This document shows positions 7,735 to 12,969 of a stretch of DNA of 20,259 nucleotides, piece by piece. The DNA is from a virus: the IMG/VR virus record IMGVR_UViG_3300042305_001591, positions 1 to 20,259 of that record; one strand, given 5' to 3'. Positions within the stretch are counted from its first letter, which is position 1; each line of letters begins with the position of its first letter. Below the pieces are notes generated by a model. That model was not told where the DNA came from, did no database searches, and saw only the letters and a list, made by a program, of their open reading frames with translations. The position numbers and the translations under genes are program-made.

Positions 7735-8078
7735 TGGCCTCCCGGCACCTCACCATCAAGAACCTGCTGCTGCTCACCAACTGGCTGCGTGAGAACGTCG
7801 AGCTGCTCAAGGCTGAGTACGCCCCGGCCGTGGCGAAGGCCGCCGAGGCCGCGCTGGGCTTCCCGATCAGCGACCGCAGCATCCACAGCATCGCCGAGGC
7901 TGAGGGATTCACCCTTCGCCGGCACCTCGAGATCGAGCGGGCCGCGGCCAAGACCAAGCCCGAGCCGCAGCTGTTCGACGGCGCCGCCCTCGAGCGGCTC
8001 GACCGCCTCGAACGCCTCACCGTCCGCCTCGCTCACCACCTCAACCTGCAGCACCTCATCAAGGAGACCAACCAGTGA
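7734..8078 (+). CDS. Small helical protein upstream of the exonuclease, unknown function
   Basis: The ATG at 7734 overlaps the previous stop (TGATG) and has an AGGGAGG site at 7721-7727. The 114-residue product is almost entirely helical: a Leu-rich helix (KNLLLLTNWL), an Ala-rich stretch, a SDRSIHSIAEAEGF segment at about residues 46-60 that could be a turn and recognition helix, and a Leu-spaced C-terminal coiled coil. A DNA-binding role is possible but the helix-turn-helix is not clear. Its stop overlaps the next gene's GTG (GTGA), so it is co-translated with the exonuclease. Confidence 0.65.
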   Translation: MASRHLTIKNLLLLTNWLRENVELLKAEYAPAVAKAAEAALGFPISDRSIHSIAEAEGFTLRRHLEIERAAAKTKPEPQLFDGAALERLDRLERLTVRLAHHLNLQHLIKETNQ

Positions 8079-8917
8079 ACGACATTGCCGATGGCATCTA
8101 CGCCGCCATGACCGAGGAAGCCTACCGGGCCCTGCCCTACGTGAACGCCTCGAGCATCAAGGCCGGCCGCACCAGCATGCAGCACATGAAGCTCGCCATG
8201 AGCGGCGTGTCCGAGAGCTCGGCCGCCAAGGAGCTCGGGACGATCACCCATGCCATGCTCCTCGAGCCGGCGAAGATTGATCGGGTGGTGGTGGCCCCCG
8301 ACTTCGGCGATCTGCGGACCAAGGCCGCCAAGGAGGCCAAGGCCGCGTGGACCGCGGGCCTTCCGGCCGGCGCCATCATCGTCGATGTGGAGACCTACCA
8401 GGCCGCCCAAGGCATGGTGGAGGCCTGCCGGCGGCACCAGACCATGCGGGACCTGCTGGCCGCCGATGGCAGCAGCGAGCTGGTCTTGGTGTGGACCGAC
8501 GCCGAGAGCGGCCTGCGGTGCAAGGCGCGGGTGGACCGCCTCATCCACCACCACCTGGTGCTCGACGTGAAGACCGCCAGGGCCGCCGGCAGCTTCGCCT
8601 TCACCAGGGCCGTGGCCGCCTACGGGTACCACATGCAAGCGGCGTGGTACCGCCGCGCCGTGGCCGCGACCACCGGCGAGCTGCTGCCCTTCGTCTTCGC
8701 CGTGCTCGAGAGCAGCGCACCCTACAGCTGCTGCCTCTACGAGCTGGACCACCAGGCCCTCGAGCAGGTCGACGCCATCAACTCGCAGATACTGCGGCAG
8801 TGGGCCGCCTGCGTCGAATCTGGCGAGTATACTTCTATCCAGCAGGACGGCCAGGTGCAGCTGCTCGAGCTGCCCGGCTGGGCCTTCTCTGGTGCCGCCG
8901 ACGTGGCCGGCATCTAA
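8075..8917 (+). CDS. PD-(D/E)XK exonuclease, RecE/exodeoxyribonuclease VIII-like
   Basis: This 280-residue protein starts at GTG 8075 with AAGGAG upstream. The N-terminal Y-x-x-L-P-Y-V-N-A-S-S-I-K region and the G55-T-I-T-H59-A-M-L-L-E64-P block are typical of phage PDDEXK-like exodeoxyribonucleases. The catalytic core is visible as K150-A-R-V-D154, then D164-V-K166 on the next strand, then Q188-x3-Y192, the QxxxY helix of lambda-exonuclease/RecB-type nucleases. The known activity is 5'-3' resection of double-stranded DNA to give 3' overhangs for a single-strand annealing protein. The next gene encodes exactly such a partner (RecT). The metal ligands look intact, so it is probably active. The sequence AGTATACT occurs at 8826-8833, inside the gene. 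Confidence 0.88.
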   Translation: MNDIADGIYAAMTEEAYRALPYVNASSIKAGRTSMQHMKLAMSGVSESSAAKELGTITHAMLLEPAKIDRVVVAPDFGDLRTKAAKEAKAAWTAGLPAGAIIVDVETYQAAQGMVEACRRHQTMRDLLAADGSSELVLVWTDAESGLRCKARVDRLIHHHLVLDVKTARAAGSFAFTRAVAAYGYHMQAAWYRRAVAATTGELLPFVFAVLESSAPYSCCLYELDHQALEQVDAINSQILRQWAACVESGEYTSIQQDGQVQLLELPGWAFSGAADVAGI

Positions 8918-8941
8918 CCCCAACCCCGTAGGAGATCCCAA

Positions 8942-9793
8942 GTGAGCGATGACATCGACGCCATCATGGCCGACGCGCGGCCCAATCCGCCGACGCAACC
9001 GCAACCGCAACCGCAACAGGCCGCCATGGTGGTGGCAGAACCCAAGGCCAGGGTGCCATTGGGCCGGCGTGGCCTCGAGGCCGACAACCTCGACAGCCTC
9101 TACCGCATCGCCGTCATGTACCTCGAGGGCGGGGCCTTCAAGCCCGAGTTCTTCGCCGGCTGCGAGACCAACCGCAGCAAGCTCGCCAGGGTCATGTTCA
9201 CCCTCGAGAAGGGCATGGCCATCGGCCTGGCCCCCACCGAGTGCATCGACGCCATGGCCTTCATCCGCGGCAAGATCACAATCTATGGCGATGCCCTGGT
9301 GGCCTGCGTGAAGCGGCACCCCGAGTGCACCGGCATCTCGACGGTGTGGGGTGGCGACGGCGACGACTTCGGCGCCACCGTGACCGTGGGCCGGCGGAAC
9401 CAGGCCGACGTGGTGGTGAAGTTCACCATCGCCGATGCCAAGCGTGCCGGCCTCTGGGGCCAGCGCGGTCCCTGGAGCTCCTACCCCCAACGCATGCTGC
9501 AGCAGCGTGCCCGCGGCTTCGCCATGCGTGACCAGTTCCCCGACGCCCTCATGGGCGCCATCACCGCCGAGGAGGTGCAGGACTACCGCGACGACTGGCG
9601 GACGGTGCCGACGCCGCCCGCGGCGGCTCAGATGCAGACCAGCGTGCAGCCGGAAGCTCTGCCGGCTCCCCAGAAGGCCGTCGAGGCCGCGCCGAGGCCG
9701 CAGGAGCCCTCCAAGGCCCAGCAGCCTCCCAATGGAGCCCCCACCGCAGCCCAAGCCCTGGCGGCCATCAGGACGGCCACCAAGGGCAACTGA
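8942..9793 (+). CDS. recT: RecT-family single-strand annealing protein
   Basis: The start is GTG 8942 with TAGGAG 10 bases upstream. The 283-residue product has an acidic leader and a short (QP) tract (encoded by four CGCAAC units at 8994-9017). Residues about 45-215 are the RecT core: the KGMAIGLAPTECIDAMAFIRGKITIYGDAL block and the GPWSSYPQRMLQQRARGFAMRDQFPDAL block near the end are hallmark segments of the family. The last 60 residues are Pro/Ala/Gln-rich and disordered, as is usual where these proteins interact with host SSB or partner proteins. RecT anneals complementary single strands produced by the neighbouring exonuclease, for homologous recombination and for concatemer or end repair during phage replication. 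Confidence 0.92.
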   Translation: MSDDIDAIMADARPNPPTQPQPQPQQAAMVVAEPKARVPLGRRGLEADNLDSLYRIAVMYLEGGAFKPEFFAGCETNRSKLARVMFTLEKGMAIGLAPTECIDAMAFIRGKITIYGDALVACVKRHPECTGISTVWGGDGDDFGATVTVGRRNQADVVVKFTIADAKRAGLWGQRGPWSSYPQRMLQQRARGFAMRDQFPDALMGAITAEEVQDYRDDWRTVPTPPAAAQMQTSVQPEALPAPQKAVEAAPRPQEPSKAQQPPNGAPTAAQALAAIRTATKGN

Positions 9794-11901: not shown

Positions 11902-12195
11902 GGCAACTGGTAAGCAACACTGATCGGTTCGACCGGCAACCGGAGTAAACCGGAGTGCCCGACTACTCCGGGTGGACCGCCGACAACCGAGGCCACCCGA
12001 GGTGTGAAAACGCCTCGGGTGGATTCAACCAGAAGCCCTTGTGTTATCGGGCAGCGGCTGGTACCATGTGGGTGCTTCTCCCTGATCTGACAATGCAGCC
12101 TCATCGACACATCGACCCCCCTCCGTGCCAATGGCGTCCTGCATGCGCCACGGGAGAAGCCACGGCTGGGGGTCGTTGTGTCCGTGAGATGACCA
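11902..12195 (+). ncRNA. Structured leader or small RNA upstream of the replication initiator
   Basis: These 294 bases separate two genes and hold no convincing coding frame. Perfect stems are: A, 11950-11956 with 11965-11971; C, 11993-12002 with 12013-12022 (ten pairs); D, 12031-12036 with 12074-12079; E, 12113-12120 with 12168-12175 (eight pairs), enclosing 12123-12125 with 12151-12153 and 12132-12136 with 12146-12150. A competing stem B, 11969-11975 with 11993-11999 (seven pairs), cannot form together with A or C. A tandem pair of CCGGAGT (11940-11946 and 11950-11956) gives A two possible 5' arms. Mutually exclusive stems ahead of an initiator gene suggest conditional control (attenuator, riboswitch or antisense target) of replication. 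The ribosome site at 12186-12190 lies just after stem E. Confidence 0.5.
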
Positions 12196-12969
12196 ATGGC
12201 AGATGACTGGATCAAGGTGCGGGTGAACCTGCACACGCACCCGAAGGTGGTGCGCATTGTGTGCGCAGTTTGTGCGCAGCTTGTGCGCGATGGGTGCGCG
12301 GCAAGTGCGCAGCGGTGCATGGTTGTCGGTGCGCTGCACCAGGTGTGGAGCCTCTTTGACGCCCACAGCCGCGACGGAATCCTCGAGGGCTACAGCCTCC
12401 AGACCGTCGATGAGCTGGTGGGAATCCCTGGCTTTTCCAATGCCATGGGCAGCGTCGGCTGGCTCACGCAGACCGATAAAGGTCTGGAGATGCGAGACTT
12501 CGACATCCACAACGGAATGGGGGCCAAGCGTCGGGCCGATCATGCAGCCCAGACACGTGTGCGCAGAATGTGCGCAACTGGTGCGCACAACTCGCGCACA
12601 GAATGCGCACCAGAGAAGAGAAGAGAAGAGAAGAGTAAGAAATCCCCCCATAGTCCCCCCAAGGGGGACGCGGGCGAAGAGCCCCCCAAGCTCATCCCGG
12701 CGTACTCCGAGGCGTTCAACCGGTTCTGGGCGCGGTACCCGCGGGCTGGTCGCCATGCCAAGGTAAAGGCCTTTGGCTATTGGCAACGAGACCAGATCGA
12801 ACGGCCAACCGAGCCGGGAAAGCCCAGCCTGGTCGAGCACATCATGCTGAACCTCGAGAAGTACATCAAGAGCAAGAAGTGGCAGGATGGGTATGTGCAG
12901 CACACCACGACTTACCTGAATCAGCGTCTGTGGGCCAATGACCCACCCAGCCCGGAGATCCCCGAATGA
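12196..12969 (+). CDS. Phage replication initiator (winged-helix N-domain, replisome-organiser-like C-domain)
   Basis: The ATG at 12196 has only a weak GAGAT site. The 257-residue product has an N-terminal domain (about residues 4-118) with the D-W-I-K-V-R ... H-P-K-V ... W-S-L-F-D-x-H-S-x-D-G ... F-D-x-H-N-G-x-x-A-K-R-R pattern of phage winged-helix initiators. A basic, Cys-bearing linker (about 119-165) follows. The C-terminal domain (about 166-250) has the F-x-x-F-W-x-x-Y-P-R ... Y-L-N-x-x-x-W pattern of phage replisome-organiser proteins. The family binds origin iterons and recruits helicase or its loader. Two iteron arrays lie within the gene itself, at residues 19-40 and in the linker 122-139, as in lambda O. 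Cys, Val and Arg choices there follow the DNA repeat. It heads the replication operon and its stop overlaps the next ATG. Confidence 0.8.
   Translation: MADDWIKVRVNLHTHPKVVRIVCAVCAQLVRDGCAASAQRCMVVGALHQVWSLFDAHSRDGILEGYSLQTVDELVGIPGFSNAMGSVGWLTQTDKGLEMRDFDIHNGMGAKRRADHAAQTRVRRMCATGAHNSRTECAPEKRREEKSKKSPHSPPKGDAGEEPPKLIPAYSEAFNRFWARYPRAGRHAKVKAFGYWQRDQIERPTEPGKPSLVEHIMLNLEKYIKSKKWQDGYVQHTTTYLNQRLWANDPPSPEIPE
12250..12315 (+). repeat. Iteron array 1: six GTGCGC units at exact 11-bp spacing
   Basis: GTGCGC begins at 12250, 12261, 12272, 12283, 12294 and 12305; the following base is A in four units and G in two. Degenerate extra units occur at 12315 and 12329. Because 11 is not a multiple of 3, the unit passes through all three codon phases (Val-Arg, Cys-Ala, Ala-Gln), so selection on DNA and not protein is the likely cause. 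One unit per helical turn would put all binding sites on one face. Confidence 0.88.
12559..12613 (+). repeat. Iteron array 2: five TGCGCA-type units at exact 11-bp spacing
   Basis: TGCGCA begins at 12560, 12571, 12582 and 12604, with CGCGCA at 12593, so all five share an 11-bp register. TGCGCA is palindromic, suited to a dimer or to binding in either orientation. The array lies in the linker-coding part of the initiator gene and is followed at once by the purine tract. Confidence 0.88.

Follow-up and report, generated by a model that had tools for sequence, protein, structure and literature searches.

Attenuation of the replication initiator by RNA is textbook knowledge for plasmids, and leaders of replication genes that contain pseudoknots are known from the IncI-complex repZ and from T4 gene 32. 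In the leader of pT181 repC, a pre-emptor pairing keeps a terminator-like hairpin from forming at the start codon (PMC5703833). Phage P4 uses segments of leader RNA to halt the transcription of its replication genes (PMC4825925). Here, we analyze the leader of the replication initiator in a viral record of 20,259 bases (GC ~66%), taken at full length and called the window below. Two crossing folds are kept in this leader and its relatives despite a near-total change of bases and a swap of the initiator, an indication of a hitherto undescribed form of RNA control over phage replication.

The Rfam 15 covariance models, applied at the gathering score to the window and nine relative loci, give no matches (C4, RF01695, included), and a permissive Rfam scan gives sub-threshold matches only. 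A self-cleaving ribozyme or a metabolite riboswitch was rejected, there being neither an Rfam match nor a conserved unpaired core. Visual comparison of loops and linkers across the lineages reveals no obvious common sequence; apart from the promoter block and short H pairs, nothing recurs. The open-access literature yielded no description of this leader element.

Architecture of the leader and its predicted promoter

The initiator gene of the window (12196–12969, plus strand; PHROG 2509/9474, epsilon15-type) is followed by a DnaB/AAA_25-type helicase gene at ~13490. The conserved leader RNA (12074–12188, ~115 nt, plus strand) lies directly before the initiator. The 5' arm of helix F (GCTTCTCCC, 12074–12082) is the predicted RNA 5' end and pairs perfectly with the 3' arm (GGGAGAAGC, 12152–12160), which adjoins the 3' arm of helix H; both arms covary. 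Helix G pairs ATGCAG (12093–12098) with CTGCAT (12139–12144), the latter within the loop of helix E/H; its arms differ elsewhere (ATGCGAAC/GTTCGCAT in the relative G001, other pairs in further relatives). Helix E, also supported by covariation, is an interrupted stem of 21 positions (12100–12120 with 12168–12188) that includes an eight-pair stem seen earlier (12113–12120 with 12168–12175). Helix H pairs CCGTG (12123–12127) with CACGG (12161–12165) and has other sequences in L130 and L140. A small hairpin D around the G 3' arm (TGGCGT/GCGCCA, 12132–12150, one T·G pair) is invariant between the window and G001, and so carries no covariation signal. Since F and G pair the RNA 5' end with the loop of the E/H hairpin (12100–12127/12161–12188), the two sets of helices cross. 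Each leader has the order F5, G5, E5, H5, G3, F3, H3, E3 (H is not separable in L152).

The E/H hairpin is terminator-like and stands right before the initiator: the extended E stem stops 7 nt short of the window ATG, its terminal part covering a weak GTGAG upstream of the start codon, and among the scored leaders the core of helix E leaves 10–26 nt to the start codon. A U-run directly 3' of E/H is found in five of the nine E/H leaders (L129, L130, L140, L151, and L154); a good one is absent from the window, G001, and L063, and that of L152 is weak. The F3 arm (CTCC) of L129 and L140 can also pair with the initiator ribosome site GGAG, a pairing not seen in the others and possibly a third state.

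Upstream of the leader, a promoter-like block on the plus strand (12039–12067; TTGTGT at 12039–12044, 17 nt, TACCAT at 12062–12067) is the best-scoring one in the 330-nt region, and is conserved in G001 and L063; by consensus, its −35 and −10 boxes are weak and fall under the cut-off of a strict scan. The start predicted from it is the first base of helix F (12074). The best forward site places the expected start at −1 to +3 of F5 in seven of seven leader regions; at control crossing stems (other high scorers) the offsets are scattered and promoter scores reach at most 4.9, all by a standard −35/−10 matrix from E. coli. No clear promoter stands out at F5 in L151 or L154. Minus-strand sites, scored with the same E. 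coli matrix, never recur at one position, and in the clade-1 leaders and L152 they score below the forward promoter.

Inside the initiator gene, GTGCGCA iterons spaced at 11 bp form two clusters (12250–12311 and 12559–12610), likely a lambda-O-like origin. Counterparts occupy the same places in L063 (GTCCGCA repeats) and L140 (CGTTAC repeats), and a purine tract 3' of the iterons (GAGAAGAGAAGAGAAGAG, 12614–12634) is also present in L063, L140, and G001. Elsewhere, the window encodes a recombination pair (8075–9793), Exonuclease VIII-like and RecT-like. Its terminase is closest to those of prophage-like contigs of Phycisphaerae and other Planctomycetes, and by these matches a planctomycete is a plausible host.

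Conservation of the crossing helices

Three contigs carry a leader identical to that of the window, and hence contribute no covariation information. G001 (IMGVR_UViG_3300032308_001254) matches positions 12034–12182 only, at 79% identity. Here, 9 of 34 pairs differ: nine changes on the 5' side and seven on the 3' side, all seven matched, give seven double-sided changes and two transitions to G·U, with no pair lost; the chance probability of this overlap in paired changes is 7e-6. A pattern search with GCGCCACGGGNNNNGCCACGGC returned G001 plus chance matches only. The G001 contig (26,954 bases) begins with a C-run in the initiator gene and ends in the 5' half of the same gene, and thus probably represents almost all of a circularly permuted genome of ~27 kb.

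Further relatives came from searches with terminase and helicase: L063/L064, L129, L130, and L140, plus the more remote L151, L152, and L154. Those of the first group have almost no leader sequence identity and the gene order of the window (small upstream gene, leader, initiator, and, where found, helicase). All counted members are metagenomic, and clade 1 comprises six distinct leaders; L151, L152, and L154 are distantly related and were recognized by the crossing-stem scan, so their membership is less certain. The layout is common to seven lineages, and two more distant phages have these same crossing helices. In the seven lineages, 141 of 141 core pairs form when each lineage retains its own arms, compared with 39–56% when arms are exchanged between lineages; as the cores were picked by hand, this swap control carries more weight than the 100%.

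The crossing-stem score exceeds all 300 shuffles in each of ten leaders, and 12074–12188 ranks first in a scan of both strands of the 20-kb window. The top pair in L129 and L140 is another crossing pair, involving the ribosome site, with the F–E pair a close second; in some other leaders it uses G, or F in a slightly shifted register. High scan scores of L122, L101, and L114 were discarded as large inverted repeats unconnected with replication genes. The initiator relatives of epsilon15, BUCT711, phiPSA1, Cobetia, and Vibrio overlap or abut the preceding gene and thus have no leader. The GenBank phage ctnlZ23 (L161, MW202710.1) was left uncounted, as it realizes a similar idea in another layout: at 1398–1500, immediately ahead of an initiator from this family, the loop of an intrinsic terminator hairpin kisses an upstream hairpin. 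Among helicase relatives in planctomycete genomes, eight helicase-bearing regions showed no promoter-coincident element, and named phages include no close relative of the clade-1 helicase.

The module behind the leader is exchangeable. L063 and L064 are ~96% identical upstream, and the 169 nucleotides that begin at the promoter and stop 3 nt short of the ATG are the same in both. From the initiator through the helicase the two differ, and 94% identity resumes past the helicase position. The initiators behind the leaders belong to several PHROG families. Since the leader is kept while initiators differ, the RNA is independent of any one initiator protein, which argues against autoregulation by the initiator.

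Competing folds and their possible roles

The initial annotation proposed a choice between stems A plus C and stem B further upstream (11940–12022, plus strand), and likened the leader to attenuators and copy-control RNAs. The pairings themselves are real: A (11950–11956/11965–11971), B (11969–11975/11993–11999), C, and E are perfectly complementary; a second 5' arm for A is present in the tandem CCGGAGT (11940–11946); C is even longer than claimed (13 bp with a GAAA cap, 11993–12005/12010–12022). The forced choice is not borne out. A with the 13-bp C reaches −39.8 kcal/mol vs. −12.3 for B, the minimum free energy structure has A and C, and a gap of ~27 kcal/mol leaves nothing to choose. Hairpins A and C lie between the upstream gene and the promoter in this lineage only; A, B, and C are missing from every diverged relative (G001, L063, L129, L130, and L140), G001 lacking all of 11902–12033, with its upstream gene stopping right before the promoter block. 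Being 5' of the predicted transcription start, the three stems would be present in readthrough transcripts only. Although B does have bases in common with both A and C, control of the initiator by A+C vs. B is scarcely credible against these points.

Perfect stems of 9–10 bp with short loops are no rarity at this GC content (0–5 per simulated 20-kb sequence); perfect stems of at least 7 bp number nine in the leader, compared with a mean of 0.47 in simulations, and the whole 294-nt region folds with z = −5.4 relative to shuffled sequences, 0 of 200 of which fold as well. Covariation in homologous leaders, suggested earlier as a check, is lacking for A, B, and C and strong for E, F, G, and H. 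The idea of an attenuator-like or copy-control-like leader with competing pairings was therefore right in kind and wrong in its parts: stem E belongs to the conserved RNA before the initiator, and the competing pair is F/G vs. E/H.

A pattern search for hairpin C gave one match, in an unrelated tail gene of L008. The region 11940–11971 contains a 6–7-nt arm in tandem and then the same arm inverted (two CCGGAGT copies and one ACTCCGG), a pattern seen with other sequences and gene positions in three lineages, the window, L018 (1142–1172), and L129 (minus strand, 2551–2584 of the reverse complement); perhaps it is an operator or a terminator.

Folding was modeled as nested only, without pseudoknots or kinetics, for eight leaders, L140 being left out of the count as its F3 and H3 share one base. 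In RNA cut after F3, helix F is complete or nearly so in seven of eight leaders (L151 forms G instead), and G is present in seven of eight, the window being the exception. In the full-length RNA, E/H takes over and F is lost in all eight. By this model, F/G would form while the RNA is being made, and E/H once it is complete.

The reading we prefer, with close to an even chance of being right, is that a bistable crossing-helix leader before the initiator attenuates the replication operon in cis. The arms, their covariation, the coincidence of helix F with the predicted start site, the predicted order of folding, and the position before the initiator are established computationally. Transcription from the promoter at 12039–12067 would produce an RNA from ~12074, with the first ~115 nt as the bistable leader. 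Early in transcription, the 5' end (F5, G5) would pair with G3 and F3, and this F/G pairing would act as a pre-emptor that delays E/H. Once the final segment has been transcribed, E/H, the stronger hairpin, would form directly upstream of the initiator ribosome site, and either displace F/G or join it as a pseudoknot. E/H would be the "off" hairpin, an intrinsic terminator where a U-run follows, or else a block beside the ribosome site. Regulation would proceed by termination or translation, with the choice presumably set by a signal or by kinetics; no signal or ligand pocket was found. Since the window, G001, L063, and L152 have no good U-run, simple intrinsic termination is not the common mechanism; in the window lineage, a translational effect seems more likely, since the weak GTGAG lies within the extended E stem.

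As F3 and H3 share no bases (one nucleotide in L140), F/G and E/H are not necessarily exclusive, and both might form at once as a stable 5'-terminal pseudoknot, protecting the mRNA 5' end or serving for 30S landing, with no switching. Both crossing helices are conserved, F3 directly adjoins H3 (0 nt between them) in four of the eight scored leaders, the very 5' end is base-paired, freedom of sequence suits a purely structural role, and standby translation of tisB requires a 5' pseudoknot (PMC7708055). However, the linkers of the window lineage look short for holding both helices (7 nt from G5 to E5), and five relatives have terminator-like U-runs; we consider this reading rather unlikely. Pairing that is kept despite a fast sequence turnover is also what specificity determinants show, and P4 replication genes are under RNA-dependent premature termination (PMC4825925), so that the leader could be a trans-acting antisense-type RNA, terminated or processed, whose F5/G5 pairs with the loop of another transcript in copy-number or immunity control. 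This is quite improbable, given that Rfam C4 is unmatched, no separate small RNA or antisense promoter is seen, and none of the clade-1 records, which are fragments, has an integrase, so lysogeny is not indicated. Finally, the interleaved inverted repeats could function as DNA, as an origin or protein sites with incidental RNA folding; they adjoin replication genes, and iteron clusters lie within the initiator gene. Yet the order of the arms is strand-specific relative to the promoter start, G·U pairs are kept, the pairing is long-range and crossing, and the likely origin is located elsewhere at the iterons, all of which make a DNA element very improbable.

The attenuator reading may be extended to a widespread class of phage leaders that lack a sequence signature, are defined by layout alone (promoter-F-G-E-H-G'-F'-H'-E'-initiator), and control the onset of replication across unrelated initiator families, with the fast-evolving arms as a specificity code between phages in co-infection; this broader proposal is unlikely. 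Neither sequence searches nor the existing Rfam models would reveal the leader, so it may be common.

Comparison with known leaders

The leader differs from those of repZ and T4 gene 32 in sequence, arrangement, and regulators. Its possible pseudoknot at the 5' end, together with a structured ribosome site, recalls the leader of the E. coli tisB mRNA (PMC7708055); tisB, however, is a toxin mRNA of other sequence and layout, with the ribosome site ~100 nt away. With the P4 CI RNA/seqA–seqC immunity system and P1 c4 it shares the character of a phage leader RNA with several complementary segments; those systems employ a separate trans-acting RNA, whereas none is seen here, and Rfam C4 is unmatched. 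Among known systems, pT181 repC is the parallel with the fullest documentation, and the similarity to pT181 and pIP501 (repC and repR leaders) extends to an initiator leader, a terminator-like hairpin before the start codon, and an earlier pre-emptor pairing (PMC5703833). Unlike pT181, the carrier is a phage, not a plasmid; F5/G5 pair with the loop (G3, F3) of the late hairpin rather than with its 5' arm (E5/H5); no antisense promoter was found with the E. coli matrix; and the window lineage has no U-run after the hairpin. The leader would offer a directly testable RNA control of the timing of phage DNA replication. What is new compared with these systems is a phage RNA with attenuator-like logic, whose shape is conserved without its sequence, and which is retained when the downstream replication module is replaced by another.
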